Below, piece after piece: positions 2,469 through 19,914 of a stretch of DNA of 64,000 nucleotides. Below the pieces are notes generated by a model that did not search any database, was not told the origin of the DNA, and worked only from the letters and a program-made list of their open reading frames with translations. The DNA lies in assembly GCA_947627625.1 (NCBI GenBank), contig CANQWR010000003.1, positions 1 through 64,000 of the forward strand. The letters run 5' to 3'. Positions within the stretch are counted from its first letter, which is position 1. The number at the start of each line of letters is the position of its first letter. A program made the position numbers and the translations under genes. Origin of the DNA: an uncultured Ruminococcus sp. GTDB lineage: Bacteria; Bacillota; Clostridia; Oscillospirales; Ruminococcaceae.

Positions 2469-2523
2469 ACAGAATAGATGTTTAGTTTGTGGGAATCTGA
2501 AATATGAACAATGGTGAGTGACA

Positions 2524-3129
2524 ATGGAAGAAAAGTACAGTGCGGGACTGATTTCGCAATCATTCTGGTTTGTTGAGTTCAAAAAAATCGTTATTTTATA
2601 TAAGAATGGTGCTGATTATGGGGAAATCAAACGTCGGTGTACAGAGGAGAATCTGTTCGGGGCAGTAAGTCCTGAGCGTGGGAGACGTATGTGCGGTTAT
2701 TTGCTCAGAAGGCTTAGGGCTATGGACGAAAAAATGATTGATATTTTTGTGAATGCTGATGTGTCCACTCGGAAACTTATAAATCTGATAACGATTATGA
2801 AAACCGACAAATTGTTTTTTGAGTTTGTGTATGAGGTATATCGTGGCAAACTGATTGTCGGCGATACAAATATTGACCTGAAAGACGTGAACATTTTCTT
2901 TGCACAGAAAGAAACTCAGAGCGACGAACCTGCTTCTTGGACGGAACAGACCAAAAAGAAACTGCGGTCACTGTTCCTGAATATGCTGACGGAGGCGGGG
3001 CTTGTGAAGTGGGCTGATGACAAGAAACAGAAGCGTATAGTCAACAGGGTTTTCATCACTATGGAGCTTGAAAACTACCTGAAAGCCACAAATGTGAGTA
3101 TGTATAAAGCGATAGCGGGAGTAAACTGA
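2524..3129 (+). CDS. brxA: BREX protein BrxA (DUF1819 family)
   Basis: The product is about 201 residues, the usual size of BrxA, the small first protein of type I BREX loci, which is reported to adopt a helix-turn-helix-rich fold related to NusB and to bind DNA. The sequence shows the family pattern: a short helical start (SAGLISQSFWFVEFKKIV), a region rich in charged helices, and a conserved C-terminal stretch (AGLVKWADDKKQKRIVNRVF). ATG 2524 is preferred because GGTGAG lies 5 nt upstream; GTG 2518 in the same frame is the alternative. The stop overlaps the brxB start by one base (TGATG), so the two are translationally coupled. Identity rests on family resemblance plus gene order. Confidence 0.85.
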   Translation: MEEKYSAGLISQSFWFVEFKKIVILYKNGADYGEIKRRCTEENLFGAVSPERGRRMCGYLLRRLRAMDEKMIDIFVNADVSTRKLINLITIMKTDKLFFEFVYEVYRGKLIVGDTNIDLKDVNIFFAQKETQSDEPASWTEQTKKKLRSLFLNMLTEAGLVKWADDKKQKRIVNRVFITMELENYLKATNVSMYKAIAGVN

Positions 3130-3695
3130 TGAGTAAACTTGAAGAGAGATTTGACAAAGCTGAAGAGGTTATACTCGGACGCACTTTCCGAAAAAACAGC
3201 GGTTTTGAGGATTCCTGTTATATTTTCGACTACGAACCCTCCAAAGAGCTGTATATCCGTGAGAGAATTGATTTTTTCGTAAAGAAGAGCAGGTCTGCGG
3301 ACATTGAGATAAAGGTGTTTGACCTCTATGATATTATAATTAAAATTTCCGAGGACAAAGGTTTCCTTGAAAAAAATTTTGAGTTTGAACAGAAAAAAGG
3401 TCTGGAGCGTGTAACAAAAGCTATTGGGAATATGTTGCGTGTCACCACTCCAAACAACCTTGTTGTAAAGTATATTGAAGAACACTCTGAGAACGCTGAT
3501 GTCATATTCCTGACGGGTATAGGAAAGTGTTTCCCTCTTTTCAGGGCACACAATGTTCTCAATAACCTTAACAGCGTTGTTCACAATATACCCGTAGTCA
3601 TGTTCTACCCGGGGAGCTACGATGGACAGTATCTCGTTTTATTCTCACAAATCAAGGACGACAATCACTACAGAGCGTTTAAGCTTGTTGACTGA
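3129..3695 (+). CDS. brxB: BREX protein BrxB (DUF1788 family)
   Basis: This 188-residue protein matches BrxB, an essential type I BREX component of unknown biochemical role. Family features are the N-terminal RFDKAEEVILGRTF, a central DVIFLTGIGKCFPLFRAHNVLNNL block, and PVVMFYPGSYDGQYLVLF near the end. In this family the PVVMFYPG-type strand closes a Rossmann-like fold. It starts on the last base of the brxA stop and ends 15 nt before brxC, where GGAG provides the next ribosome site. Length is typical and no disruption is seen. Confidence 0.88.
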   Translation: MSKLEERFDKAEEVILGRTFRKNSGFEDSCYIFDYEPSKELYIRERIDFFVKKSRSADIEIKVFDLYDIIIKISEDKGFLEKNFEFEQKKGLERVTKAIGNMLRVTTPNNLVVKYIEEHSENADVIFLTGIGKCFPLFRAHNVLNNLNSVVHNIPVVMFYPGSYDGQYLVLFSQIKDDNHYRAFKLVD

Positions 3696-3710: not shown

Positions 3711-6700
3711 ATGACAATCGGTGAAGTTTTTAAGAAAGAAATCACACGTCCGATAAAGGGCGTAATCACGGTGGGCGGTTCGGAAAGTGAAGAGGAAATA
3801 AAACAGGAGCTTGAAGAATATGTTGTCACCAGAGAAATAAGAAAGCACATGAGGACTCTCTACACAAATTACTGCAAGAGTCTTGACGGCAAAACCACCG
3901 ATATTGGCGTGTGGGTGTCGGGCTTTTTCGGAAGCGGTAAATCACATTTTGAACGCATTAACGCAACTCTTCTCGAAAACAGCGTGATTGACGGGAAAAG
4001 GGCTGTTGAATATTTTATAGACGATGATAAATTTAATGACGAAATGCTTGTGGCAGATGTCCGCAGGGCAGTTTCCGTTCCGACCGATGTTATTCAGTTC
4101 AATATTGACTCCCGAAGCGAGATGACAGGAAAACACAACAAGGAAGCTATAGGTTACGTACTGCTCAAAGTTTTCAACGAAATGCAGGGCTTTTGCGGTG
4201 CAATTCCCCTTGTCGCCGATATTGAACGCCGTCTCAGCAAAAGAGGTCTCTATGAAGAATTTAAGGCAAAGTTTGAGGAAATTTACGGCTCTCCGTGGGT
4301 TGAATCAAGAGATGAGTTTGACTATGTACAGGACGAAGTTGTTGAGGCTCTTGTCGCTGTCGGTGCAATGAGTGAGGAGGCGGCGAGAAATACCTGTGAA
4401 AAAATCACTCTCGACTACAAAATGGACACGGAAGCCTTTGCAAAACTCGTCAAGAGCTATATCGACGGCAAGGGCAGACATCACCACGTTGTATTTGTCA
4501 TTGACGAAATCGGGCAGTACATAGGTGAGGACGATGACCTTATGCTCAATTTGCAGACCGTCACCGAGGATTTGGGCAAAATCTGTCAGGGACAGGCGTG
4601 GATTATGGTTACAAGTCAGCAGGATATTGACTCCATAACAAAAACCCGTTCGGACAACTTCTCCAAAATTCAGGGCAGATTTGCAACCCGTCTGTCGCTG
4701 TCCTCCACCAATGTCGACGAGGTTATCCGTGAGAGAATTTTGAAAAAAAATCAGACGGGACACGATTCTCTTTGCCTGCTCTACGACAAAGTTGAGACAC
4801 TTATAAAAAATTTAATTCTCTGGAATGACGAAATAAACAAACCGCTTTACTCCGATAGAGAGAACTTTGCGGATGTCTACCCGTTTATCCCTTACCAGTT
4901 CAATATGCTGGGTTCTATCCTTACGGCTATCCGCACATATGGAGCTTCGGGAAAACACCTCGCCGACGGTGAACGTTCCATGCTTGCTCTTTTCAAAGAA
5001 GCAGCCGTCCGCCTGAAAGACAGGGAACCCGGTGAGCTTGTACCGCTCCATATGTTCTATGACTCATTGGAACAGTTCCTTGACCACTCCCACAGCTCTG
5101 TTATTTCCCGTGCATACGATAACCCGTATCTCAACCCCGAACACGAGGAAAACAATTTTACTATCAATGTGCTCAAGACACTGTTCTTGATTAAATATAT
5201 AAAAGAAATTGTCCCGACTCCTGAAAATATAACAAGTCTCATGGTCTCCCATGTGAACGACAACAGAATGGAGTTACAAAATAAAGTTGAAAAGTCTCTT
5301 GATATGCTTGTGAAGCAGATGCTCGTCTCTCACAACGGAAGAAATTATATCTTCCTGACGAACGAGGAGCAGGAAATAAACCGTTCAATTTCCGCTATGA
5401 ACGTTGAGCTTGATGAGCGGACAAGAATGATTTCCGAATTGATTTTTGAGGAGATTTACACAGACAGAAAATTCAGGTCCGCAAAGTTCGGCAACAGGTA
5501 CAGTTTCGGTTTCAGACAGATGGTTGACGAGAAGTATTACAGGACAAACAACGACTACCCAATGACGCTCCGCATCCTGACACCCGACAGCGATGAAGCT
5601 ACCACCGATGACGGCACTATGCGTTTTCTTTCGGGACAGGATAATGTTGTACTCGTGGTTTTGCCTCCGAACAGAGCCTTTATTGACGAACTTGTCAGTG
5701 CAAAGCAGATTGAAAAGTACATGACCAGCGGTGCAAGCGGAAATCTTGAAAAATATGAGCAGATAAAGGCGAGCAAGAGCAGAGAGATGCGTGATAAGCG
5801 TTGTAATGCAAAAATTTACCTTCAAAATTCTCTCAAAGAAGCCGTTATTTATGTCGGCGGTGACAGGGTACGGAGCAATTCAAGAGACATCAGCTCCAGA
5901 ATAAACGATGGTCTTGAAAAACTTATCAATACGCTGTATCACAAGCTCTCCTATATCACTGTGCCTGTTACCGAGGGCGATATTCTCTCCGTTCTGACTG
6001 ATAACGGTGGACAACTCTCCCTTGACAATGAGGGTTCAAAGGCAAATGAGTTTGCCGTCTCCGATGTGAGGGACTTCATTGCAAGGAACTCCGCACAGAA
6101 GCACTCTAAAACCTCGCTGAAATCTCTCCTTGACACGTTCAAATCAGCTCCATATGGTTTTGTGGAACTTGATGTGCAGTGGATTGTCGCAAAACTTCTG
6201 AAACAGGGCGATATTACACTGTATATGAACGGCGAAATTGTAAGTCTGCTGAACAGGGAGGCAAAGGAGATACTCCGCTATCTCACAAGAAAAGAGTACT
6301 TTGAAAAGCTGATGATTGAGCCGAAAGTCAGAGCAGGACAAGCTAAGATTAAGGTGACAAAAGGCGTTATAAAAGACCTATTCGGCGTAAGCTGTCTGAG
6401 CGATGATGAAGATGTGATTATGCGTGATTTCAAGCGTTATGCTGAGAGTCTGAAGCGTGAACTTGAAAAAATTGAGTATAACTACAGTACGCAACCGAAA
6501 TATCCCGGCAAGGCTGTCATTGCAAAGGGAAAGAGCCTGCTGACCGAAATTCTGCTGATACAGTTTCCCGTGGAGTTTTTCAATGTTGTCAAGGGTAAAG
6601 AAGAAGACCTCCTTGACTTTGCTGAGGACTATGAGCCTGTCAAAAAATTTTTCGGCACAGGAGACAATCCGGGAGAACAAAAGAAAATTTTTGACGATGT

Positions 6701-7340
6701 TTTGCGTATTCTCGGCATTTATGAGTGCAGTAAGACCTATATCGTTGACAGGGACATTGAAGATACTGCCGCCGAAATCGGGAAGATTATCAACAATCCG
6801 AACCCCTATAACGAAATCCACAAGCTCCCTCCGTTGCGTGACACATTCATTGCAGCTAATGTGAGACTTCTCTCACAAACGGCTGAACCTGTAAAGAAAG
6901 CTGTCGACGATGCGAAAAAGCGTGTGTTTGAGGAACTTGACGGCAAACTGTGCAAAGATAAGCTGTCCGAAAAGTTTGTAAGGCTGTTTGCGGAGCTGAA
7001 AGAAAAGGCGGGGCATTGTAATGATGTGGCTGCACTGAAAGCAATCACGTCCGAAGCCGATGCTCTCAAACTCCGTTGTCTCAACGAGATAAACGACAAT
7101 GAAGCCAAAATGACTCCGCCTCCGCAGTCTCCTGTGAGTGGCGGTGATATTGATACGCCTGTTACACCTCCTACAACAAAGCCTGTCAAGAGGCGAAAGT
7201 CCGTAAGTATCAAGACAATTAACAACGCTTCCACTTGGCAGATTGAAACAGAGGAAGACGTAAAGAAATATGTGGCAGAGCTTGAAAAGCGTCTGATTGC
7301 AACGCTTGAAGATGATACTGTCATTAACATAGAATTTTAA
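3711..7340 (+). CDS. brxC: BREX P-loop ATPase BrxC
   Basis: The product has 1209 residues, the normal size for BrxC, the large STAND/AAA-like ATPase of type I BREX. A Walker A motif, GFFGSGKSHF, lies at residues 71-80. A Walker B-like VFVIDEIGQYIG follows at about 260-271, and an arginine-rich sensor region near 300-330 contains TRSDNFSKIQGRFATR. The long C-terminal half is helical and ends in a proline/threonine-rich linker (PPPQSPVSGG) and a short helical tail. The family is thought to use ATP to assemble or move the BREX complex on DNA. The start ATG follows TAAAGGAG. The gene is intact and leads straight into pglX with a 10-nt gap. Confidence 0.93.
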   Translation: MTIGEVFKKEITRPIKGVITVGGSESEEEIKQELEEYVVTREIRKHMRTLYTNYCKSLDGKTTDIGVWVSGFFGSGKSHFERINATLLENSVIDGKRAVEYFIDDDKFNDEMLVADVRRAVSVPTDVIQFNIDSRSEMTGKHNKEAIGYVLLKVFNEMQGFCGAIPLVADIERRLSKRGLYEEFKAKFEEIYGSPWVESRDEFDYVQDEVVEALVAVGAMSEEAARNTCEKITLDYKMDTEAFAKLVKSYIDGKGRHHHVVFVIDEIGQYIGEDDDLMLNLQTVTEDLGKICQGQAWIMVTSQQDIDSITKTRSDNFSKIQGRFATRLSLSSTNVDEVIRERILKKNQTGHDSLCLLYDKVETLIKNLILWNDEINKPLYSDRENFADVYPFIPYQFNMLGSILTAIRTYGASGKHLADGERSMLALFKEAAVRLKDREPGELVPLHMFYDSLEQFLDHSHSSVISRAYDNPYLNPEHEENNFTINVLKTLFLIKYIKEIVPTPENITSLMVSHVNDNRMELQNKVEKSLDMLVKQMLVSHNGRNYIFLTNEEQEINRSISAMNVELDERTRMISELIFEEIYTDRKFRSAKFGNRYSFGFRQMVDEKYYRTNNDYPMTLRILTPDSDEATTDDGTMRFLSGQDNVVLVVLPPNRAFIDELVSAKQIEKYMTSGASGNLEKYEQIKASKSREMRDKRCNAKIYLQNSLKEAVIYVGGDRVRSNSRDISSRINDGLEKLINTLYHKLSYITVPVTEGDILSVLTDNGGQLSLDNEGSKANEFAVSDVRDFIARNSAQKHSKTSLKSLLDTFKSAPYGFVELDVQWIVAKLLKQGDITLYMNGEIVSLLNREAKEILRYLTRKEYFEKLMIEPKVRAGQAKIKVTKGVIKDLFGVSCLSDDEDVIMRDFKRYAESLKRELEKIEYNYSTQPKYPGKAVIAKGKSLLTEILLIQFPVEFFNVVKGKEEDLLDFAEDYEPVKKFFGTGDNPGEQKKIFDDVLRILGIYECSKTYIVDRDIEDTAAEIGKIINNPNPYNEIHKLPPLRDTFIAANVRLLSQTAEPVKKAVDDAKKRVFEELDGKLCKDKLSEKFVRLFAELKEKAGHCNDVAALKAITSEADALKLRCLNEINDNEAKMTPPPQSPVSGGDIDTPVTPPTTKPVKRRKSVSIKTINNASTWQIETEEDVKKYVAELEKRLIATLEDDTVINIEF

Positions 7341-7350
7341 GGTGATATAT

Positions 7351-9912
7351 ATGAACAAGACAAAGATTAAAAATTTTTCGGTATGGGCAAGACGAAACCT
7401 GATTGAAGTTATCGCATACCGTATGCGTTTTCTCGGTATCAGTGAGAACGGTATCGCTCCCGAAATGGACGGTTCTACCAACAAGCTGAAACTGTACGAT
7501 ATGGGTACAAGCAAGCCTGCTGAGGTGGCTGACAAAGACATTGCAAAGCGTGTCCGCCTTGCAAATCATATCAGAGAACTCGAAAAGACTTCCGACTACA
7601 AAACCGCCTATGAGACGGCAGTTGAGGAAATCGCATACACTTGGTTCAACAGGCTGATTGCTATTCGCTTTATGGAGGTCAATGACTATCTGCCTTCAGG
7701 AGTGCGTGTGCTCTCCTCCGAAAGCGGCAAGCGTGAGCCCGATATTGTCACCAATGCGGCAGAAGTTGCCGAAGCAGAGGGATTTTTTGTCTCAAAGGAC
7801 AATATCTGGAAACTCAAAGATGAAAACAAGCTCGATGAACTTTTCCGCATTATGTTTATCGCACAGTGCAGAAAACTCCATGAAGTACTTCCTGAACTTT
7901 TCGACAACTCTCTTGATGACTATACGGAACTCCTCCTGCCTATCTCGTTTATTGACGACGATGCCTTTATCCGTCACCTTGTAACCGATATTGATGAGGC
8001 TGATTTTGACCTGTCAAAACAGGGACAGGTCGAGATTATCGGCTGGCTGTATCAGTACTACAACACCGAAAAGAAAGATGCCGTCTTTGAGGCAATGAAA
8101 AAGAATGTCAAGGTGAGCAAGGAGAACATCGCTCCCGCTACTCAGCTCTTTACGCCCGACTGGATTGTCCGATATATGGTAGAAAACTCCCTCGGTCGGC
8201 TCTGGGCGGACGGTCACGGCAAACCCCAAAACGCCGACTGGAAATATTACCTCGATGAGGCACAACAAGAGGAGTCCGTTATGGCGGAACTCCAAAAAAT
8301 CCGTGCGGAATCCCAAAATATTCAACCCGAACAAATTAAAATTATTGACCCTTGCATGGGCAGCGGACATATCCTCGTGTACGCTTTTGACGTTCTTATG
8401 GATATTTATACCTCCTACGGATATACTCAGCGTGAGGCTACACAGAACATAGTCCGCAAAAACCTTTGGGGGCTCGACATCGATAAACGTGCTTATCAGC
8501 TTGCATATTTTGCGGTTATGATGAAAGCAAGACAGTATGACCGCCGTTTCCTTACAAGAAATATAGAGCCCAATCTTTCTCATTTTCAGGATTTGCCCGT
8601 ACCAAACTATGACGCTCTCGGCGAAAAAATCAAGCCATTTTTGGAGCAGTTTAAGAATGCCGACACATACGGTTCTCTTATGACCGTTCAGCCTTGCGAA
8701 ATTCCGCAGATGACATCTTCCATTGATATGGATAAGCACCAAATTGATCATATGATTAAACTTTACGGGATTCTCTCGCAGAAATATGACGTTGTATGCA
8801 CAAATCCGCCATATATGGGAAGTTCGGGAATGAATGCGGTGCTGTCGGATTTTGTTAAAAAGAATTACCCCGATGCAAAATCTGATTTGTTTGCGTGCTT
8901 TATTGAGCGTTGCGGAATGCTTGCAAAACCGCAGGGCTATTATGCTATGATTACTCAACACGCTTGGATGTTTTTGTCAAGTTATGAAAAACTCCGTGAA
9001 AAATTAAATGCTAAAAGTTTTATCAATATGTTGCATTTAGGTGCAAGGGCATTTGACGAAATCGGCGGTGAAGTCGTACAGACAACGACATTTGTGCATA
9101 AAAATACACACGAAAAAAATTATACGGCTACATATGTCAGACTTGTTGATATTGTCGGTGAAAATGAAAAGCGTGATATGTACCTGAGCGGTGAAAATCG
9201 CTACACGGCAAAGCAGGAAAACTTCTCTAAAATCCCCGGCTCGCCTGTCGCTTATTGGGTTAGCGAGAATTTTGTTAGGGTGTTTGAGAATCCAAAGTTG
9301 GGGGAGATTGCTAAACCTCGTGTTGGCTTACAAACTGGAGATAATAACAGATTTTTAAGAATGTGGTTTGAGGTTAGTAATAAAAAATGTGAAATGAATT
9401 GCAAAAATTCAAAAGAATCACAACTTTCTAATGCCACTTGGTATCCGCACAATAAAGGTGGAGCATATAGAAAATGGTACGGAAATAATGAATATGTAAT
9501 CAACTATAAAAATAATGGTATGCTTCTAAGAGAAACAGACGGTGCTTCTACTATCCCTGATGTGCTTTGTTTCAATTCGGCAATAACTTACTCAAGAATA
9601 ACATCTGGGTGTATTTCTTTTAGAATACAGCCTGTAGGATTTATTTTTGACTCTGCATCTGTGAATTGCTATCCTAAAGAAAAAAATTATTGCTTAGGAT
9701 TTTTCAATACCAAAATTGTTGATTATATTCTCAGAGTAATCGCTCCAACTCTTAACACTCAGCCTGGAGATATTGCAAAAATACCTATAATAATTGACGA
9801 AAACAAAAAGCCTGTCGTTGATAAACTTGTTGAAGAAAATATAAACATAAGTAAAACTGACTGGGATTCTTTTGAGACCTCTTGGGATTTCAAGAGACAT
9901 CCGCTGATTTAA
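7351..9912 (+). CDS. pglX: BREX adenine-specific methyltransferase PglX, N-terminal part (split gene)
   Basis: This is the catalytic part of PglX, which methylates adenine-N6 in the BREX recognition site and marks host DNA as self. The SAM-binding motif IIDPCMGSGHILVYAFDVL starts near residue 330 and the catalytic NPPY motif is at about 485-488, with a target-recognition region after about residue 570. ATG 7351 is chosen because AAGGTGA sits just upstream. Only 853 residues are present against about 1150-1200 in usual PglX. The frame stops after DWDSFETSWDFKRHPLI, a conserved point in full-length relatives, and the missing end is encoded separately at 10543-11451. From about 9050 onward the DNA is visibly more AT-rich than the rest of the operon, suggesting the recognition domain was exchanged. 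Confidence 0.92.
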   Translation: MNKTKIKNFSVWARRNLIEVIAYRMRFLGISENGIAPEMDGSTNKLKLYDMGTSKPAEVADKDIAKRVRLANHIRELEKTSDYKTAYETAVEEIAYTWFNRLIAIRFMEVNDYLPSGVRVLSSESGKREPDIVTNAAEVAEAEGFFVSKDNIWKLKDENKLDELFRIMFIAQCRKLHEVLPELFDNSLDDYTELLLPISFIDDDAFIRHLVTDIDEADFDLSKQGQVEIIGWLYQYYNTEKKDAVFEAMKKNVKVSKENIAPATQLFTPDWIVRYMVENSLGRLWADGHGKPQNADWKYYLDEAQQEESVMAELQKIRAESQNIQPEQIKIIDPCMGSGHILVYAFDVLMDIYTSYGYTQREATQNIVRKNLWGLDIDKRAYQLAYFAVMMKARQYDRRFLTRNIEPNLSHFQDLPVPNYDALGEKIKPFLEQFKNADTYGSLMTVQPCEIPQMTSSIDMDKHQIDHMIKLYGILSQKYDVVCTNPPYMGSSGMNAVLSDFVKKNYPDAKSDLFACFIERCGMLAKPQGYYAMITQHAWMFLSSYEKLREKLNAKSFINMLHLGARAFDEIGGEVVQTTTFVHKNTHEKNYTATYVRLVDIVGENEKRDMYLSGENRYTAKQENFSKIPGSPVAYWVSENFVRVFENPKLGEIAKPRVGLQTGDNNRFLRMWFEVSNKKCEMNCKNSKESQLSNATWYPHNKGGAYRKWYGNNEYVINYKNNGMLLRETDGASTIPDVLCFNSAITYSRITSGCISFRIQPVGFIFDSASVNCYPKEKNYCLGFFNTKIVDYILRVIAPTLNTQPGDIAKIPIIIDENKKPVVDKLVEENINISKTDWDSFETSWDFKRHPLI

Positions 9913-9925
9913 TGGAGGTAGAAAA

Positions 9926-10546
9926 ATGAGTGATTGGTGGAGAAAAGGAACATTTTATCCTGAATACAAATCGAATTACCCGAAAATTATCAGTTTCTAT
10001 TTATTTAATTGTCCAGTTCAGACTTTTACATATGAAAAGATAGATAAAACCAAGAAAAAAGGCAAGGACAATAGAAGGAAAGTGTTCAAAAAAGTATCGC
10101 AAACAAACGATACTTTTGAAAGTCGAAATTGGGTTAAAGGTAATCTTATTACACTCCAAAATGCTATGAAAGGTAATATTCCGTTTATTTTTGTAGAAAG
10201 TACTGACAATGTTGAGGAAAAGCACAGAAACCTTGAAGCATCAAGTAGTAATTCTGACAAGAATTATGAATATGTGATTTTTAAAAAGTCAGGTGAATTA
10301 AGTCAAACGGTGAGTATTTTTTACCACATTAGAAACGCAATTGCTCACGGCTCTTTTTCAGTAGTCAGAAATAATGATACCCCAATTTACTATTTTCAAA
10401 GTCAAAAAGACGGTGATATTAAGTCAAGAATAAGACTTAAAGAGAATACACTGCTACAATGGATTGATTTTTTTAATTCTAATGTTTCTGAAATAAAAGA
10501 AATGAAACAAGCAAAGAAATCTAAGAAAAAGGTGAAGAATAAATGA
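9926..10546 (+). CDS. HEPN-motif protein embedded between the two pglX halves
   Basis: This 206-residue, lysine-rich protein has the block FYHIRNAIAHGSF, in which R136-N137 and H141 form the Rx4H signature of HEPN domains. That motif is the RNase active site of many toxins and abortive-infection proteins (RnlA, LsoA, Cas13 and HEPN-MNT relatives use the same logic). The rest is not recognised; the tail (residues 194-206) is strongly basic. A GGAGG site precedes ATG 9926. The gene begins 13 nt after the first pglX part stops, and its TGA overlaps the ATG of the second part (ATGA), so all three are co-translated. Base composition is AT-rich like the adjoining PglX recognition region and unlike pglZ. 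An RNase role is inferred, not shown. Confidence 0.75.
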   Translation: MSDWWRKGTFYPEYKSNYPKIISFYLFNCPVQTFTYEKIDKTKKKGKDNRRKVFKKVSQTNDTFESRNWVKGNLITLQNAMKGNIPFIFVESTDNVEEKHRNLEASSSNSDKNYEYVIFKKSGELSQTVSIFYHIRNAIAHGSFSVVRNNDTPIYYFQSQKDGDIKSRIRLKENTLLQWIDFFNSNVSEIKEMKQAKKSKKKVKNK

Positions 10547-11451
10547 GCAGACTAATATCCGATAAATACAAAGCATGGGAACAGGAATGCAGCAGCCGTT
10601 TCAGCCGCCTGAAAGCCAACGAGGAGGAACTAAACCGCATTTTCATCGACATTTACGGCTTGCATGGCGAGCTTTCGCCCGATGTCGATGACAAGGACGT
10701 GACCGTCAGAAAAGCCGATTTACAGCGGGAAATCAAGAGCCTGATAAGCTATGCAGTCGGCTGCCTTTTCGGCAGATATTCCCTTGACTGCGACGGTATC
10801 GCATACGCCGGCGGTGAGTGGGACAGCACGAAATACCGCACAATTATCCCCGTAAAAGATAACTGTCTGCCGATAACGGAGGAATATTTCTTTGAAAACG
10901 ATATTGTCTCAATGTTTGTGAATTTCGTACGTGTGGTCTACGGAGAGGAAACCCTTGAGGAAAATCTCCGCTATATAGCGGGGAATCTCGGCATAAAGGG
11001 CAACGGCACCGCAAGAGAAAAAATCCGTCAATATTTTTTGAAAGACTTTTTCAGAGACCACTGCAAAATTTATCAGAAACGCCCGATTTACTGGCTTTTT
11101 GACACAGGAAAGAAAAACGGCTTCAAGGCACTTGTCTACATTCACCGCTGGACGGTCAACACGACGGGGGACGTAAGAATCGACTATATGCACAAGTTGC
11201 AGAGACTTTACAGGAATGAGATTATCCGTCTGAAAGAGAACATAGATGAAGGTGAGGAGATTGCAAAGAGTCAGAAGCGTCTTGAGAATATAACGGGGAA
11301 GTTGCAGGAGACGGAAGAATATGATGCTAAGATTGGTATTGTAGTGGCTGCCCGCACGGAGATTGACCTCGATGACGGCGTGAAAGTCAACTATGACAAG
11401 GTGCAGGTCGGCTCTGACGGCAAGCACTATCAGATTTTGGCGAAAATATGA
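10543..11451 (+). CDS. pglX: PglX C-terminal part encoded as a separate protein
   Basis: The 302 residues correspond to the conserved C-terminal region of full-length PglX: RFSRLKANEEELNRIFIDIYGL, DKDVTVRKADL, SLISYAVGCLFGRYSLD, YQKRPIYWLFDTGKKNGFKAL and the ending DLDDGVKVNYDKVQ. In intact relatives this follows the SWDFKRHPL segment directly. Here it has its own ATG, overlapping the HEPN gene stop as ATGA. 853 plus 302 residues gives 1155, a normal PglX total. It lacks any catalytic motif, so it should work by assembling with the N-terminal part. Both pglX frames lie in the same phase; the interval from the first stop codon to this ATG is 633 nt, divisible by three. Confidence 0.9.
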   Translation: MSRLISDKYKAWEQECSSRFSRLKANEEELNRIFIDIYGLHGELSPDVDDKDVTVRKADLQREIKSLISYAVGCLFGRYSLDCDGIAYAGGEWDSTKYRTIIPVKDNCLPITEEYFFENDIVSMFVNFVRVVYGEETLEENLRYIAGNLGIKGNGTAREKIRQYFLKDFFRDHCKIYQKRPIYWLFDTGKKNGFKALVYIHRWTVNTTGDVRIDYMHKLQRLYRNEIIRLKENIDEGEEIAKSQKRLENITGKLQETEEYDAKIGIVVAARTEIDLDDGVKVNYDKVQVGSDGKHYQILAKI

Positions 11452-11460
11452 GGAAGAACT

Positions 11461-13974
11461 ATGGTCGGACTTAACTTGAATCAGATTACTGCCAAACTGA
11501 ATGAAGCGTTCACAGGCGATGCAAGGCAGTTAATCTTTTGGTATGACGAAAACGGCGATTTTGCGGAGGACATTGACACCCTTGTTCTCGACAATGCAAA
11601 GGTGTACAGGCTCGAACCGAATAATCAGATTTACACAAAATATTTTCTTACATACAAGGACACGGAAACAAATTATCTGATTTACGCACCTTTCCCGAAA
11701 CCCGATGTGTATGACAATCATCTTGAGGATATGTTGCTATATTCAAGGCAATTTTTCGCTGACCGTGCCTCAATTATCTGTGCGGAACTCGGTATTTGTG
11801 AGGAGCTGAAACCTGTCATTCAGAAATACAGCAAATATTTTTCTGCAAAGGACAGGACGAAACGTTTTTATGACCTCGGAATTGAGAGCTGGAGCGAGGA
11901 CAGTATAAAAATCGGTATAATGTCGGCTGTATGCGGTACGAAAATCTCTTCTTTTGAGGAAGTCGTAAAGGTCCTGCTCAATAGCAGACTTGATGAGGAA
12001 AACCCGTATATGGCTGATTTTCGGAAGTACGGGCTTGTTGAGGATTTTTGGACTAAGGCAGAGACTTATTTCGGCTTCACGCACCGGTCTCCCGACATCA
12101 GAAACTTCACGGCTTCGCTGTTCCTGACCTATGCCGCTAAGGAAATCACAGCAGAAATGCCGAAAAACCTCAGAGACGGTCTGACCTACAAAACAGGCTC
12201 GGTCGTTGCGTTCCTCAACAATCTGATGAACAACACCGAATATGCGAAGCGTTTTGACGAGCTGTCGGATTTTGTCTACGGGGGACTCGGCGGAGATAAG
12301 TTTCTCGACACTTTTCCCGTGGAGTCAATGATTAGATGTGATGCGTTCAGGGCTGTTGACGAATTTATCATCAAATGGCTGATAGAGCGTCTTGAAACTG
12401 AGGACACAAGTGCAAAGCTATCGGGGAGTACAATTCTTCAGCTCTGTTCCGACAGAAAGAAAACACATTTCGGTAAAAATTATACAGTGCAGTATTCCGT
12501 TATTGAGTACGCATATAAGATTATTTATGCGGGCAGGTACGAACCTGTCAGCCTGCTCCCCGACATTGTGAAAAATTACAGGGAAAATTATTACAAGAAC
12601 GACAGAAATTACCGTCTGTTTTACTACAATTACGATAAACTGACAGAGACTTCGGCTTTTGAGAAACTCCGTGAGCTTGTTGAAAATATCTATACAAACG
12701 ACTATCTGGAAAATATCTGCACCAACTGGACTAAGGCTTTTGCAGAGGGAGAGGGGAAATCGGGTCTGCCGTTTCAAATTAACTTCTGGCGTGAAAGAGT
12801 TGCACCTGTCAGGGAGCGTGTGGTAGTGTTTATCTCCGATGCTATGCGTTATGAAGTCGGTATGTCTCTCTATGAAAAGCTCAATGCAGACGAGAAATGC
12901 AAGGCTACGCTTTATGCGATGCAGACCGTTTTGCCGTCAATTACGATGTGCGGAATGGCAGCACTTCTCCCTCACAGGACATATGAGCTGACACCTGATT
13001 ACAGACTTTTGGTGGACGGAAAACCCTGTGCTTCAACTACTGACAGAGAAAAAATAATCAGGTCTTACAATCCGAAAAGTCTCTGTATTCAGTATGATGA
13101 ACTTAAAGGCAAGAAGGTCGATGAGCTGAAAGCACTTGTTTCAGGGCTTGAAGTGATTTATGTCTATCACAATCAGATAGATGCCCGTGGAGACAAAGCT
13201 ACTACGGAAGATGAAGTGTTTATCGCTTGTCAGGAGACTGTGGACGAGATTTCATTCATGATAAGGCGGTTGACGGGTGCAAATGTAACTCGTTTCTTAG
13301 TGACCTCAGACCACGGATTTATATACAAGCGTGACAAATTGAGAGCAGGGGACAAAATCGGCGACGTGTCGTCCAAATCGCAGTTCATGGGCAAGAGGTA
13401 CGCTGTTGCCGACGATGTGATAGATATGGACGGCGTGAGCGGTGTCGGTCTCGGCAGTATCTGCCGCAACAGTGATACAAGAAGTGTTTCCTTCCCCGTG
13501 GGTGCAGATATTTTCAAAACCCAGGGCGGTGGTCTGAATTTCGTACACGGCGGTTGCTCTCCACAGGAGATGATTATTCCGCTGATTGACGTAAAAACAG
13601 AGAAATCTAAGGTTGAAACTACATTTGCGGGAATCTCAATGACTACAAATATCAGCAAGATTACAAACCTCAGCGTGAATCTTGAATTTTTCCAAAGGCA
13701 ACCTGTTTCTGATATAGTCAAGTCGGCGACTTATCACATTTACTTTGAAGCTGAGGACGGCGAAAGAGTATCAAATGAAAATCAGTACCACGCCGACAGT
13801 TCGGATAAAAATCCTCTGAACACAAAGGCAAAGCTGAGATTTTCATTCAAGAACAGGATTTACAGCAACAGGGACAAATATTACCTGATAATTATGGATG
13901 AGGAGCATAACATTCAGCTCGCTAAAATTCCGTTCACAATCGATATAGCTATGGCGAATGACTTTGGTTTTTAA
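11461..13974 (+). CDS. pglZ: BREX PglZ, alkaline-phosphatase superfamily
   Basis: The 837-residue product has the expected length and motifs of PglZ, the putative phosphatase/hydrolase that defines BREX. The metal-binding block VVVFISDAMRYEVGMSLYEKL is near residue 455-475. HNQIDARGDKATTEDEVF lies near 565-580, and TSDHGFIYKRDKL, with the Asp-His pair of the alkaline phosphatase core, near 615-627. The N-terminal 400 residues are the helical PglZ-specific region. GAGGAAG provides a ribosome site 5-6 nt before ATG 11461, 9 nt after the pglX C-part. The gene is intact. Its substrate is not established in the family. Confidence 0.93.
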   Translation: MVGLNLNQITAKLNEAFTGDARQLIFWYDENGDFAEDIDTLVLDNAKVYRLEPNNQIYTKYFLTYKDTETNYLIYAPFPKPDVYDNHLEDMLLYSRQFFADRASIICAELGICEELKPVIQKYSKYFSAKDRTKRFYDLGIESWSEDSIKIGIMSAVCGTKISSFEEVVKVLLNSRLDEENPYMADFRKYGLVEDFWTKAETYFGFTHRSPDIRNFTASLFLTYAAKEITAEMPKNLRDGLTYKTGSVVAFLNNLMNNTEYAKRFDELSDFVYGGLGGDKFLDTFPVESMIRCDAFRAVDEFIIKWLIERLETEDTSAKLSGSTILQLCSDRKKTHFGKNYTVQYSVIEYAYKIIYAGRYEPVSLLPDIVKNYRENYYKNDRNYRLFYYNYDKLTETSAFEKLRELVENIYTNDYLENICTNWTKAFAEGEGKSGLPFQINFWRERVAPVRERVVVFISDAMRYEVGMSLYEKLNADEKCKATLYAMQTVLPSITMCGMAALLPHRTYELTPDYRLLVDGKPCASTTDREKIIRSYNPKSLCIQYDELKGKKVDELKALVSGLEVIYVYHNQIDARGDKATTEDEVFIACQETVDEISFMIRRLTGANVTRFLVTSDHGFIYKRDKLRAGDKIGDVSSKSQFMGKRYAVADDVIDMDGVSGVGLGSICRNSDTRSVSFPVGADIFKTQGGGLNFVHGGCSPQEMIIPLIDVKTEKSKVETTFAGISMTTNISKITNLSVNLEFFQRQPVSDIVKSATYHIYFEAEDGERVSNENQYHADSSDKNPLNTKAKLRFSFKNRIYSNRDKYYLIIMDEEHNIQLAKIPFTIDIAMANDFGF

Positions 13975-13987
13975 TGGAGATGGACAG

Positions 13988-16069
13988 ATGGAAGATAATA
14001 TTTTTACGGAAAGCAGTACAAGAGAGGAAATATATCGCAAATTGAGGGATAATTTTGACGGAAAGATAGTCCGCAAAGACCTAACAAAGCGTATAAAGGA
14101 GGGGGCAAACGTCCCCGTCTATGTGCTTGAATTTCTTTTAGGGCAGTACTGTAGCAGTGATGATGAAGATGTTGTGCAGGACGGTGTGAAGCAGGTCAAG
14201 AGGATTTTGTCCGAAAACTACGTCCGTCCTGATGAGTCCGAAAAGGTGCTTTCAAAGCTGAGACAGAGAGGTTCAATGAGTATAATTGACAGAGTGACGG
14301 TCACTCTGAACCTCAAAACCGACAGCTATGAGGCGTGGTTCTCAAACCTCGGTCTTGGCAAAGTGCCTATTTCCGAAAACTATCCGCAGGAATTTGACCG
14401 ACTTCTGTGCGGTGGTATCTGGTGTATCATAAATCTTGAATATATAAGCGGCGATTCTCTTTTTGACAATGAGACAAATAAAGCAGTACCGCCCATTGTT
14501 ATCAACAAGCTCACTCCGATTCAGATGCCCTATGTGGACATGAATGATTTGAGAGAGGGCAGAAAGGCTTTTACAAAATCTGAGTGGATAGACGTGTTAT
14601 TGCGTTCCATAGGCATGGAGCCTGATACCCTGACTGAGCGTGAAAAATGGCTTTTGATTGCCAGAATGATGCCCCTTGTGGAAAATAACTTCAATATGTG
14701 TGAACTCGGACCTCGCTCTACAGGTAAATCCCACATCTACAAGGAAATCTCTCCGAACAGTATTCTTGTGTCAGGTGGTCAGACAACGGTCGCCAATCTG
14801 TTCTATAATATGAGCAGACACTCTGTCGGTCTTGTCGGACTTTGGGACTGTGTAGCCTTTGATGAGGTTGCGGGTATAAAGTTTAAGGACAAAGACGGCG
14901 TACAGATTATGAAAGACTATATGGCTTCGGGTTCATTCGCAAGGGGAAAAGAGGAAATCGGAGCTTCTGCCTCTATGGTCTTTGTCGGAAACATCAATCA
15001 GAGTGTCGATGTACTCTTGAAAACTTCAAGTCTTTTTGACCCTTTTCCGCCCGAAATGGGTACGGACACGGCTTTTCTTGACCGTATGCACTGCTATATC
15101 CCAGGTTGGGAAATTCCGAAATTCAGACCCGAACATTTTACCGACGATTACGGCTTTATTACGGACTATCTCGCTGAGTTTATCAGGGAACTCCGCAAAG
15201 TGCAGTACGGCGATGTGATTGACAGATATTTCAAACTCGGAAAGAACCTCAATCAGAGAGACACTATAGCTGTCAGAAAAATGGTCGGCGGTCTTGTGAA
15301 ACTCATATATCCCGATGGTGAGTTTACAAAGGAGGAGCTGGAGGAAATTTTGCGTTTTGCCCTCGAAATGAGACGGAGAGTTAAAGAACAGCTCAAAAAA
15401 CTCGGCGGTATGGAATTCTATGATGTGAATTTCTCCTATATTGATAATGACACATTTGAGGAGCATTATGTTTCCGTTCCTGAACAGGGTGGCGGGAAGC
15501 TGATACCCGAAGGCATATGCAATCCCGGTCAGATATACACCGTTTCAAGGGGTAAAACGGGAATGCTCGGCGTGTTCAGACTTGAATCTCAGGTGTTGCC
15601 GGGCAACGGCAAATTTGAGAAAACAGGTCTCGGAAGTGACCGTGAGGCAAAGGAGGCTGTCAACACAGCTTATAATTTCCTGAAAGCCAACGGGAAACGT
15701 GTCAGCAGTTCGATTGACATATCCACAAAGGACTATATTATAAATTATCAGGACTTGCAAGGCATCGGTATGACCTCTACACTTGCAGTGTCCACCCTTA
15801 TTGCAATCTGTTCAATAGCACTCGGCAAGCCTGCACTTCCGTCTTTGGCTGTTCTCGGTGAAATAAGTATCAGCGGTTCACTTATAAAGGTTGAGGACTT
15901 GGCAAATTCGCTTCAGGTATGCCTTGACAGCGGAGCAAAGAAAGTCCTTCTCCCGATAACTTCCGCAGTGGACCTCGGTACAGTACCGCCTGAGCTTATG
16001 GGCAATTTCAGCATTATATTCTATCAGAGTGCGGAAGATGCTGTGTTCAAGGCTTTGGGAGTTGAATAA
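13988..16069 (+). CDS. brxL: BREX Lon-like AAA+ protein BrxL
   Basis: The product has 693 residues from ATG 13988, chosen because GGAG lies just upstream; an earlier in-frame ATG at 13958 is inside pglZ and has no ribosome site. A Walker A motif GPRSTGKSH is near residues 241-249, with Walker B-type DCVAFDEVAGI near 290. The C-terminal 110 residues form the Lon-protease-like domain (GIGMTSTLAVSTLIAICSIALGK, then LGEISISGSLIKVEDLANSL, and AKKVLLP). BrxL of type I BREX forms barrel-shaped hexamers on DNA and is needed for phage defence but not methylation. It is the last BREX gene, starting 13 nt after pglZ. No clear terminator follows it. Confidence 0.93.
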   Translation: MEDNIFTESSTREEIYRKLRDNFDGKIVRKDLTKRIKEGANVPVYVLEFLLGQYCSSDDEDVVQDGVKQVKRILSENYVRPDESEKVLSKLRQRGSMSIIDRVTVTLNLKTDSYEAWFSNLGLGKVPISENYPQEFDRLLCGGIWCIINLEYISGDSLFDNETNKAVPPIVINKLTPIQMPYVDMNDLREGRKAFTKSEWIDVLLRSIGMEPDTLTEREKWLLIARMMPLVENNFNMCELGPRSTGKSHIYKEISPNSILVSGGQTTVANLFYNMSRHSVGLVGLWDCVAFDEVAGIKFKDKDGVQIMKDYMASGSFARGKEEIGASASMVFVGNINQSVDVLLKTSSLFDPFPPEMGTDTAFLDRMHCYIPGWEIPKFRPEHFTDDYGFITDYLAEFIRELRKVQYGDVIDRYFKLGKNLNQRDTIAVRKMVGGLVKLIYPDGEFTKEELEEILRFALEMRRRVKEQLKKLGGMEFYDVNFSYIDNDTFEEHYVSVPEQGGGKLIPEGICNPGQIYTVSRGKTGMLGVFRLESQVLPGNGKFEKTGLGSDREAKEAVNTAYNFLKANGKRVSSSIDISTKDYIINYQDLQGIGMTSTLAVSTLIAICSIALGKPALPSLAVLGEISISGSLIKVEDLANSLQVCLDSGAKKVLLPITSAVDLGTVPPELMGNFSIIFYQSAEDAVFKALGVE

Positions 16070-16125: not shown

Positions 16126-16587
16126 ATGCGTCCTAAAACTCTGAAAGCAGTGAAGAACAATTTGATAAAACTCACTTTATCTTCTTAAGACAGGATATTT
16201 TTACAGCTTCATGTGCAACTCCTGAATTTTGACGCTGATACCGAAAAGATTAAGGAATTATTAGAGAAAGCAATATTTTTTTCAAGAGATAATTACGATT
16301 TACAGCAGCAATGTGTTCCTGTTGCTTTGAGACTTGATACAGCAAGAACAATATTCAAAAAACTTACCAATGAGGGATATTCACTTGAAATAAATGGAAA
16401 ACTCCTTAGCCTGATTTATAATAGATATGATTGTGATAGAGAAGCGTATGGCATTCTTGTTAATCGTATTGGAAAAGAAAACACGATAACTTGGCTAAAT
16501 ATCAAGCTCCAATATCATATCGATATAAAAAGTGGAGCGTATGCAAATATACAGACAAAGGGAAGGCAGAGATTCACAAAAATCTAA
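16126..16587 (+). pseudogene. Decayed hypothetical reading frame after brxL
   Basis: A frame from ATG 16126 (MRPKTLKAVKNN) hits TAA at 16186-16188 and then continues openly for about 130 codons in the same phase (LLNFDADTEKIKELLEKAI, then DLQQQCVPVALRLDTARTIF). Around 16490-16680 a different plus-strand frame reads plausible protein (AEIHKNLKFDPYAIWCMHQFAEQY), suggesting a later frameshift. No Shine-Dalgarno is seen before 16213. It is best read as a broken gene beside the defence operon. The family is not recognised, and a real 120-residue protein starting near 16211 remains possible. Confidence 0.4.
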
Positions 16588-17520: not shown

Positions 17521-19914
17521 ATGGGATTCAAAATTAAAAACTTGCTAAAAAAATATGTGGAAGAGGATGATGTAACAGATATTGTCATTCCCGAGGGCGT
17601 TACGGAAATTGGGAAAAAGGCATTTGAAGACTGTGAAAGTCTTGAAAGCGTGACAATTCCTGACAGCGTTAAGAAAATTAGAGAGTACGCATTTTCGGAC
17701 TGCACAAGTCTTACAAGCATAACTATTCCGAAAGGCGTTAAGGAAATCGAAAAAAAATCATTTGAAGGCTGTGAAAACCTTACGAACGTTATAATTTCCG
17801 AGGGCGTTAAGAAAATCAAAAAAAAGGCATTTTACGGCTGCGAAAGCCTTGAAAGCGTGACAATCCCGGATAGTATTACAAAAATCGGAAATAGTGCATT
17901 TGAAGACTGTGAAAGCCTTGAAAATGTGACAATTCCCGACAGCGTTACAGAAATTGGAGAGTACGCATTTTATAATTGCACAAGCCTTACAAGCATAACC
18001 ATTCCCGACAGCGTTACGAAAATTGGAAAATACGCATTTTCGGACTGTACAAGCCTTAAAAGCATAACTATTCCAAAAGGCGTTAAGAAAATCGGATATG
18101 GTGCATTTGAAGGCTGTACGAGCCTTAAAAGCATAACAATCCCGAAAGGCGTTATGAAAATCGGGAAAAAGGCATTTGAAGACTGTAAAAGCCTTACAAG
18201 CATAACTATTCCGAAAGGCGTTGCGAAAATCGGAGAAAATGCATTTTCAGGCTGTGAAAACCTTACAAGCGTGATAATTCCCAATGGAGTGGCAAAAATC
18301 GGAAATAGTGCATTTGAAAAATGTACAAGTCTTACAAGCATAACTATTCCTGACAGCGTGACAATAATCAGGGGTAGTGCATTTGAAAGCTGTAAAAGCC
18401 TTACGAGCATAACGATTCCGGACAGCGTAATGGTAATCAGGGGTAGTGCATTTGAAGGATGTAAAAGCCTTACGAGAGTGACAATCCCCGACAGCGTGAC
18501 GAAAATCGGAAATTGTGCATTTTCCGGCTGTACAAGCCTTAAAAGCATAACTATTCCGGATAGCGTGGCAGAAATCGGGGATAGTGCGTTTTGTAGCTGT
18601 GAAAACCTTACAAATGTGACAATCCCGGAGAGCGTGACAGGAATCGGAGGTAGTGTGTTTTGTGACTGTGAAAGCCTTAAAAACATAACAATCCCGAACA
18701 GTGTGACGAAAATCGGTTTGTGTGCATTTCAAAACTGTAAAAGCCTTAAGAGCATAACAATCCTGAACAGCGTGACAGAAATCGGAGACGGTGCGTTTTC
18801 AGGCTGTAAAAACCTTACAAATGTGACAATCCCGGAGAGCGTGGCAGAAATCGGGGATAGTGCGTTTTGTAGCTGTGAAAACCTTACAAATGTGACAATC
18901 CCGGAGAGCGTGACGAAAATCGGAAATTGTGCGTTTTCAGGCTGTAAAAACCTTACAAATGTGACAATCCCGGAGAGCGTGACAGAAATCGGAGGTAGTG
19001 TGTTTTGTGACTGTGAAAGCCTTAAAAACATAACAATCCCGAACAGTGTGACGAAAATCGGTTTGTGTGCATTTCAAAACTGTAAAAGCCTTAAGAGCAT
19101 AACAATCCTGAACAGCGTGACAGAAATCGGAGACGGTGCGTTTTCAGGCTGTAAAAACCTTACAAATGTGACAATCCCGGAGAGCGTGACGAAAATCGGA
19201 GAAAAGGCATTTTATGAATGTAAAAGCCTTAAAAACATAACAATCCCGAACAGCGTTACGGAAATCGGAGGCGGTGCGTTTTCCGGCTGTGAAAACCTTA
19301 AAAGCATAACTATTCCCGACGGCGTGACAGTAATCGGTTGGTCTGCATTTGAAAATTGTACAAATCTTGAAAACATAACTATTTCCGACAGCGTGACGGA
19401 AATCGGAGGTAGTGCATTTTATGGTTGCGGAAGTCTTACAAGCTTGAAAATTTCCGACAGCATAACGGTAATCGGTTGGTCTGCATTTGAAAATTGTACA
19501 AGCCTTAAAGAAATAATTACACCTGATTTTGAAATTAAAGTATATAACCATGACGAAATAGCTAAACAGATTTGGCTTGTTGTTTCCGGAGACCTTTCTT
19601 TTGAAGTTTCCCCCCAAGCAAAATATGACATAATCTTGCAGATGTTTTTACAAAAGCCCGATGACGAAGAGTTGCTTACATACGTCAAGAAAAATTTCAC
19701 AAAAGCATTGAAGAGTACCATAGACAACAACGATGTTGAGACGATTTCTGCTGTCTGCAAGAGGAAAGACCTCCTCACAAAAAGAAATATCGACAATCTA
19801 ATCGAGTACGCTATCCAACACACCCGGAACGGCGGAACTGTTGAGATACAGGCTATTCTCATGCGTTACAAAAACGAAAATATCGGTTTCAGTACACCGA
19901 GTTTCAGAATATAA
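17521..19914 (+). CDS. BspA-type leucine-rich repeat protein without signal peptide
   Basis: The 797-residue protein is built of about 28 tandem 23-residue LRR_5 repeats with the pattern ITIPDSVTKIGxxAFxxCxSL, spanning roughly residues 15-665. A C-terminal helical domain of about 130 residues follows (IAKQIWLVVSGDLSFEVSPQAKYDIILQMFL, then LLTYVKKNFTKALKSTIDNND). There is no signal peptide, membrane anchor or dockerin, so it appears cytoplasmic, unlike adhesin-type BspA proteins. The C-terminal domain also occurs in other intracellular Ruminococcus-type LRR proteins but has no assigned function. GGGAGG precedes ATG 17521. DNA-level duplications inside the array show recent expansion. It has its own promoter and terminator, so it is monocistronic. 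Confidence 0.85.
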   Translation: MGFKIKNLLKKYVEEDDVTDIVIPEGVTEIGKKAFEDCESLESVTIPDSVKKIREYAFSDCTSLTSITIPKGVKEIEKKSFEGCENLTNVIISEGVKKIKKKAFYGCESLESVTIPDSITKIGNSAFEDCESLENVTIPDSVTEIGEYAFYNCTSLTSITIPDSVTKIGKYAFSDCTSLKSITIPKGVKKIGYGAFEGCTSLKSITIPKGVMKIGKKAFEDCKSLTSITIPKGVAKIGENAFSGCENLTSVIIPNGVAKIGNSAFEKCTSLTSITIPDSVTIIRGSAFESCKSLTSITIPDSVMVIRGSAFEGCKSLTRVTIPDSVTKIGNCAFSGCTSLKSITIPDSVAEIGDSAFCSCENLTNVTIPESVTGIGGSVFCDCESLKNITIPNSVTKIGLCAFQNCKSLKSITILNSVTEIGDGAFSGCKNLTNVTIPESVAEIGDSAFCSCENLTNVTIPESVTKIGNCAFSGCKNLTNVTIPESVTEIGGSVFCDCESLKNITIPNSVTKIGLCAFQNCKSLKSITILNSVTEIGDGAFSGCKNLTNVTIPESVTKIGEKAFYECKSLKNITIPNSVTEIGGGAFSGCENLKSITIPDGVTVIGWSAFENCTNLENITISDSVTEIGGSAFYGCGSLTSLKISDSITVIGWSAFENCTSLKEIITPDFEIKVYNHDEIAKQIWLVVSGDLSFEVSPQAKYDIILQMFLQKPDDEELLTYVKKNFTKALKSTIDNNDVETISAVCKRKDLLTKRNIDNLIEYAIQHTRNGGTVEIQAILMRYKNENIGFSTPSFRI
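18631..19190 (+). repeat. 345-bp internal tandem duplication in the LRR array
   Basis: The stretch from about 18631 to 18845 recurs nearly base for base at 18976-19190. The marker GTTTTGTGACTGTGAAAGCC shows the offset as 345 bp, exactly five 69-bp repeat units. Synonymous positions match too, so this is a recent unequal-crossover duplication of five leucine-rich repeats, not protein-level convergence. Confidence 0.85.

Follow-up and report, generated by a model that had tools for sequence, protein, structure and literature searches.

Why a bacteriophage exclusion (BREX) operon should encode its methyltransferase PglX as two proteins with another gene lodged between them, and what that gene does there, is the question raised by the window, a 64,000-nucleotide stretch of contig CANQWR010000003.1 from an uncultured Ruminococcus sp. 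The type I BREX gene set is complete here in one operon—brxA, brxB, brxC, pglX in two pieces, pglZ and brxL—and the initial annotation, made from the letters alone, had placed the two parts of pglX on either side of a gene with a HEPN signature; its coordinates, its sizes of 853, 206 and 302 residues and the SWDFKRHPLI end of the first part are all confirmed. The locus is probably a type I BREX system with a two-subunit PglX and an exchangeable cargo slot, which in the window would hold a latent HEPN RNase as second-line effector. The elements concerned are the following.

7351..9912, + strand: pglX-N, methyltransferase and target-recognition subunit, 853 aa (PADLOC PDLC02521 positions 1-869; Escherichia coli BrxX alignment to residue 870)
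8347..8367, + strand: S-adenosylmethionine-binding motif I, DPCMGSG, in pglX-N (sequence)
8803..8814, + strand: catalytic motif IV, NPPY, in pglX-N (sequence)
9880..9912, + strand: break point, SWDFKRHPLI then stop (corresponding end in 10/10 complete cargo-split loci)
9926..10546, + strand: HEPN-motif gene embedded as slot cargo, 206 aa (Rx4H motif; alignment with relatives)
10331..10348, + strand: RNAIAH, predicted HEPN RNase motif with R136 and H141 (R136, A140 and H141 invariant in 10 aligned proteins including that of the window)
10543..10546, + strand: ATGA overlap of pglX-C start and HEPN stop (sequence)
10543..11451, + strand: pglX-C, stand-alone C-terminal subunit, 302 aa (PADLOC PDLC02521 positions 877-1169; PDB matches 9ewz, 8zek, 8c45)

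Taken together, the two proteins amount to one normal PglX, as had been proposed: they cover positions 1-869 and 877-1169 of the 1174 positions of PDLC02521, so that the break loses about seven profile positions, and the N-terminal domain, methyltransferase (MTase) motifs I and IV, target-recognition domain (TRD) and C-terminal domain (CTD) are all found, spread over the two. With a stop after residue 853 the single polypeptide is lacking, and the protein is classed as a two-subunit variant. By alignment, PglX-N ends at the equivalent of E. coli BrxX residue 870, 33 residues past the published end of the TRD, which is given as residues 651-837 (PMC11842806). Both halves align with the structures of E. 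coli BrxX and Salmonella PglX (9ewz, 8zek, 8c45, 8q56), although these are single chains. The tight packing described at the outset holds in every respect, with 13 nucleotides (nt) from the PglX-N stop to the HEPN start, a 4-nt overlap of the HEPN stop with pglX-C, and both pglX frames in the same phase (1 in 3 by chance). Because of this spacing and overlap, the cargo is most likely made together with both PglX halves.

The same break recurs elsewhere. PglX-C was searched in four genome sets (the window's order, the family of genome G125, the phylum and the window's genus), three of which include the window's genome, and gave matches in 11 of 394, 13 of 300 (five of these also in the order set), 43 of 398 and 9 of 30 genomes, respectively. 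Cargo-bearing splits account for five of the 11 in the order set (window, G013, G125, G295, G383) and unbroken pglX for three (G266, G296, G373), the others comprising a gene truncated at a contig edge yet fused across the site (G279), one with a break in its TRD (G139) and a distant PglX outside BREX (G168). The eight genomes new to the family set add splits in G568, G606 and G639, the last with a second, partial split (L052), besides a hybrid (G581), an unbroken gene (G493), two genes truncated by contig edges yet fused across the site (G413, G548) and an indeterminate case (G610). Across the phylum set, 35 of the 43 genomes have their match in an open frame of more than 1,100 aa, a measure of frame length, most of these loci not having been read further; three of the other eight are cargo splits (window, G013, G882), and the rest comprise TRD frame breaks (G909, G1027), an insertion sequence (IS; G664), a contig-edge cut (G934) and a 74-aa frame left out of the classification (G962). 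In the phylum sample, then, PglX is as a rule unbroken, and the window's order shows the split more often. A tblastn search of plasmids with both the HEPN protein and PglX-C led to a further case. PglX-C matched 268 plasmid records, and of the 60 among them that were listed three were read (Collinsella, Ligilactobacillus, and Acinetobacter, the last with an IS); Collinsella aerofaciens NZ_OY725717.1 carries pglX-N, HEPN and pglX-C inside a complete BREX operon. Collinsella belongs to the Actinomycetota. The complete cargo-split loci therefore number ten, the window and nine others, one of them in C. aerofaciens.

Several candidates were rejected as cargo splits: L022, L059 and L060, which are fused across the site though cut by contig edges; L056, whose state a contig edge leaves indeterminate, and L096, likewise at a contig edge; L024, L090 and L091, with TRD frame breaks and no cargo; L095, with an IS insertion; and L031 of G168, the distant PglX outside BREX. 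Two loci outside the ten, L052 (PglX-N lost at a contig edge) and L057, are counted among the split rows of the tree described below. L057:5926-16487 holds an unbroken pglX followed by several cargo genes, an MNT-HEPN pair among them, and then a second, stand-alone PglX-C, an arrangement that is possibly an intermediate of the split.

What argues for more than chance is the precision of the break, with an identical PglX stop residue in every complete locus. PglX-N ends SWDFxx[HN]PL[IV]-stop in 10/10, and the start of PglX-C lies 18-19 aa ahead of RFxxL[KR]xNEEELN in 10/10, where for L027 and L028, which have a longer frame upstream, the conserved internal start was used instead, in L028 from one codon further on. 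A ribosome-binding-like stretch (GGAG or GGTGA) was seen by eye after the PglX-N stop in 8/10, L028 and L032 being unclear. Unbroken relatives join the halves at this very site by a variable linker; in the nine measured, the stretch between WDF and NEEELN is 34-63 aa long. The initial annotation had named a single isolated occurrence with decaying halves as grounds for giving up its interpretation, and the nine other complete loci, with conserved halves and intact motifs, speak to the contrary.

The split is also scattered in the tree of PglX-C. Among 53 rows, the 12 split rows require at least four changes, and their union in one clade is rejected by the approximately unbiased (AU) test (p 2e-13 for 12 rows; 3.5e-39 for 11 rows without L057), as is a clade of the main group of splits and the window (p 9.7e-5), a grouping chosen after inspection of the tree. 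The split rows are not one clade; repeated splitting, re-fusion or transfer are all compatible with this. The window and L052 as a clade are not rejected (AU p 0.18), and a clade of the main group with Collinsella is neither shown nor rejected. These trees omit three duplicate rows, and the tree that adds the free PglX-C of the genus omits 12 further distant or long-branch intact rows.

The window's own genus takes the separation further. Eight of the 30 genomes besides the window have a stand-alone PglX-C, which in G1448 and G1455 follows brxC; around the other six no BREX gene was seen, and these genomes gave no BrxC match genome-wide. PglX-N-like genes are present on other contigs of all eight, one or two per genome, with two copies in five of the six without BrxC. 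These genomes are drafts, and the contigs of L141 and L156 end 135 and ~340 nt after PglX-N; at the loci other than these two, no PglX-C stands beside an unlinked PglX-N. Within the genus, PglX-N accompanies PglX-C in 9/9 genomes, the window included, and is found in 0/21 without PglX-C by the same search that detected it in the eight, which serves as positive control (Fisher p 7e-8, with the window counted and relatedness not corrected). The thirteen unlinked PglX-N stop at the HPL site or, in two cases, 1 and 7 residues past it, and the PglX profile is matched to position 869 by the three unlinked PglX-N tested and from 876/877 by the two PglX-C tested. Because the same residue marks the break, the split rows do not form a single clade and the unlinked halves strictly co-occur, PglX-N and PglX-C are very probably the two subunits of one enzyme rather than debris.

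The TRD of the free PglX-N tends to exceed the MTase in conservation, in 10/10 pairs of one group (a) and 11/15 of another (b; one tie, three lower), which suggests that their specificity is fixed; the TRD of the BREX splits is less conserved than the MTase in 39/45 pairs, the regions compared differing slightly from those of the free PglX-N. Several of the unlinked PglX-N and PglX-C genes (L134-L139, L141, L153-L164) lie in shared gene neighbourhoods, and at L159-L161 and L163 the unlinked half follows a gene that by eye is xylulokinase-like. In G1448, a broken TRD-end remnant with stops (L132:3483-3620) lies between brxC and pglX-C, and PglX-N is on another contig. The PglX-C of the window's genus relatives deviate from the metal-ligand aspartates of E. 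coli BrxX.

The gene inside the break changes from locus to locus. HEPN-motif cargo occupies 3/10 loci, namely the window, Collinsella and G882 (as second cargo gene; PF18736, 6e-18), while RES-like cargo is found in G125 and G383 (60% alike, both below the Pfam cut-off), SLFN_AlbA_2 in G383, DUF2971 in G295, DUF4760 in G606, proteins with a hydrophobic start in G013 and G639, and a protein without assigned family in G568. Toxin or abortive-infection types, judged by predicted family, are among the cargos: HEPN, RES-like, SLFN_AlbA_2 and, by hydropathy, small membrane proteins. The recurrence of the three-gene unit, for which the initial annotation had proposed a search, is borne out in C. aerofaciens, but seven of the ten complete loci hold other cargo, which speaks against a dedicated HEPN-PglX system; in the window's genus, moreover, the halves also occur unlinked. 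G125 and G013, members of one genus, are 94% identical in the MTase and 90% in the CTD but 46% in the TRD, and their slot cargos have no BLAST match to each other, which points to a middle swapped by recombination. In 10/10 loci the cargo has a lower GC content than the MTase and CTD parts; AT-richness as a sign that TRD and cargo arrived as one foreign block was dropped, since the TRD is AT-rich in 7/9 unbroken pglX as well. On a viral contig (L051:1-7065), two genes that by eye are serine-recombinase-like precede a pglX whose C-terminal domain carries a long insert. We regard the slot cargo as most plausibly an exchangeable accessory effector, and that of the window as probably a back-up RNase working in the manner of PrrC, by analogy with that system.

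The HEPN assignment of the window protein is supported but indirect. The 206-aa protein itself has no match in Pfam, NCBIfam or PADLOC. PF18736 (HEPN pEK499_p136) is matched at 6e-18 by the cargo gene of another split locus, L092, weakly by two of four A1 relatives (0.0033 and 0.039), and by four of the ten A2 proteins, the L092 cargo being one of the four and the window protein not. All ten aligned A2 proteins, that of the window included, share R136, A140 and H141 and so conform to the Rx4-6H pattern. Outside the slot, 21 relatives were found and the surroundings of 11 read. Five of these lie within three genes of restriction-modification (R-M) genes (L008, L115, L117, L118, L140), the L008 relative being an 86-aa frame that stops ahead of the motif; the remainder adjoin unrelated or other defence-like genes, one on a viral contig (L113). 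At L118 and L140 the relatives have hsdS genes of type I R-M loci as neighbours on one or both sides, a position resembling that of PrrC. The phage collection, searched with the HEPN protein only, gave no match.

Several observations weigh against a two-subunit PglX with an exchangeable HEPN effector. The AlphaFold model of the HEPN protein (pLDDT 48.7) is too poor to give a fold, with a best Foldseek E of 0.12, and that of the window's PglX-C (pLDDT 49.7) is unusable. The latter protein has V104, D106 and N119 where, by alignment, E. coli BrxX has its metal-site residues D997, D999 and D1012, its row in the tree is a long branch, and it sits among the unbroken proteins when the free PglX-C of the genus are included, seven of eight of which form a clade (98/88); among the main-clade splits, the first metal aspartate is kept in 7/8, L092 being the exception. 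Promoter-like sites lie within the TRD 130-330 nt upstream of the HEPN gene, none being present on the + strand inside it, so that the HEPN gene may have a transcript of its own. The RES-like cargo of G125 (L026) is divided between two overlapping frames and is perhaps broken. Nor do cargo and specificity travel strictly together, a notion that was dropped because L053 and L055 have a common TRD (74%) with different cargo, and L026 and L028 a common RES-like cargo (60%) with TRDs that are 35% alike. Lastly, between the unbroken pglX and pglZ of L093 lies a gene with 70% identity to the Schlafen cargo of G383; that cargo can thus do without a split PglX, which weakens the idea that the cargo is silenced by PglX itself.

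This last point, together with the unrelated nature of the cargos, lends itself to an explanation that is tenable, if doubtful: the slot would offer only expression and co-transfer, and the HEPN gene would be an independent abortive-infection or selfish toxin gene inside a needed gene, neither held nor triggered by PglX. Relatives without a restriction or BREX gene nearby (L003, L033) fit such passive carriage, but the five of 11 close to R-M genes do not, and by eye no antitoxin gene adjoins the window's HEPN gene, so that something must keep its product quiet. Much less can be said for a stray insertion that broke pglX and killed the BREX system, which is very improbable; the long branch and the two changed metal-ligand positions of PglX-C would suit it, and pglX is indeed broken elsewhere, by frame breaks (L024, L090, L091), by an IS (L095) or in a decayed TRD remnant (L132), but the clean stop in all ten loci, the conserved halves with their intact motifs and the retention of unlinked halves together in the genus are hard to reconcile with decay.

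Gene order and translational overlap might also befit a HEPN-motif protein that docks the PglX halves as a structural or regulatory partner instead of acting as an RNase, and an Rx4H motif by itself is no proof of catalysis; there is nevertheless little to recommend this, as most other split loci have unrelated cargo and seven of the eight genomes with unlinked halves gave no HEPN relative, the relative in the eighth lying beside hsdS. That the arrangement is an assembly or binning artefact of a draft genome, 87% complete and in 38 contigs, is scarcely credible, given the same gene order in the complete Collinsella record and the same break in eight other genomes.

The remaining genes of the operon are as follows.

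2518..3129, + strand: brxA (Pfam PF08849, 3e-55; PADLOC BrxA)
3129..3695, + strand: brxB (Pfam PF08747, 8e-42)
3711..7340, + strand: brxC (PADLOC BrxC PDLC02471, E 0)
11461..13974, + strand: pglZ (PADLOC PDLC02564, 1e-283)
13958..16069, + strand: brxL (PADLOC PDLC02506, E 0)

After brxL, a 124-aa gene (16213-16587) has no Pfam, PADLOC or NCBIfam match, and a BspA-type leucine-rich repeat protein is encoded further downstream of BREX (17521-19914).

In the preferred account, that of a two-subunit PglX with an effector slot, PglX-N, with its N-terminal domain, methyltransferase and TRD, and PglX-C, with the C-terminal domain, would assemble after translation, and the HEPN-motif protein would be a latent RNase, silent in uninfected cells. 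Were BREX overwhelmed or inhibited, this RNase would act as a growth-stopping effector, as PrrC does beside EcoprrI; such a trigger is suggested by the PrrC precedent, the classes of cargo and the lack of a visible antitoxin gene. PrrC is a HEPN RNase encoded in a DNA-modification locus, silenced there and freed by phage anti-restriction (PMC3710099). The comparison extends to how the two may work and no further, since PrrC joins an ABC ATPase domain to HEPN whereas the window protein has 206 aa and no Pfam domain, and its gene, unlike that of PrrC, lies between two methylase parts.

HEPN genes within Pgl and BREX operons are already known (PMC3710099, PMC12839542). Genes of the pEK499_p136 HEPN type have been reported within pglX, pglY, pglZ operons and beside R-M genes, with a back-up RNase role proposed (Anantharaman et al. 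2013, PMC3710099), and the likeness to the window is that of a HEPN gene of the same broad family within a pglX-bearing operon; the passages of that article on these operons mention neither a split pglX nor a gene between its halves, and HEPN domains are said there not to fuse to methylases. A second line of stand-alone nucleases, HEPN and Schlafen types among them, has been described beside or inside BREX core loci (PMC12839542, NAR 2026), which resembles the role proposed here, although the words split and fragment are absent from the main text. The ATPase-DUF4435 or PARIS cassette of Salmonella BREX, described as an indel between pglX and pglZ (PMC9009780, PMC11341690), likewise places accessory anti-phage genes in a BREX locus, as in the window, but after pglX and not inside it. 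Titles and abstract openings in the open-access literature yielded no published description of the split pglX, its cargo slot or the unlinked halves, so that novelty, which had been supposed for the whole arrangement, would hold for the split and the slot but not for the presence of HEPN genes in such operons. Overall, the earlier interpretation is partly supported, and the main interest does not lie in the HEPN gene.

A wider reading, speculative and on the whole unlikely, is that PglX is by nature a two-part protein with a shared C-terminal subunit, that this subunit has left BREX in the window's genus, and that the seam in BREX is a socket for effectors. The genus PglX-C would then serve one or two methyltransferase-TRD subunits that are unlinked to it and fixed in specificity, the whole being a domesticated epigenetic system with a build like that of HsdM and HsdS, and slot effectors would watch the assembly of PglX, being freed when PglX-C is titrated, for example by the DNA mimic Ocr.

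These findings bear on how BREX components assemble and on how BREX responds when phages block it. A natural two-subunit PglX would supply separable parts for the study of assembly, and new anti-phage effectors can be sought in a slot whose cargo changes, the slot proteins of L054, L052, L029 and L053 being candidates. The unlinked PglX halves, for their part, suggest BREX-derived methylation systems with widely separated parts that annotation would have difficulty in connecting.

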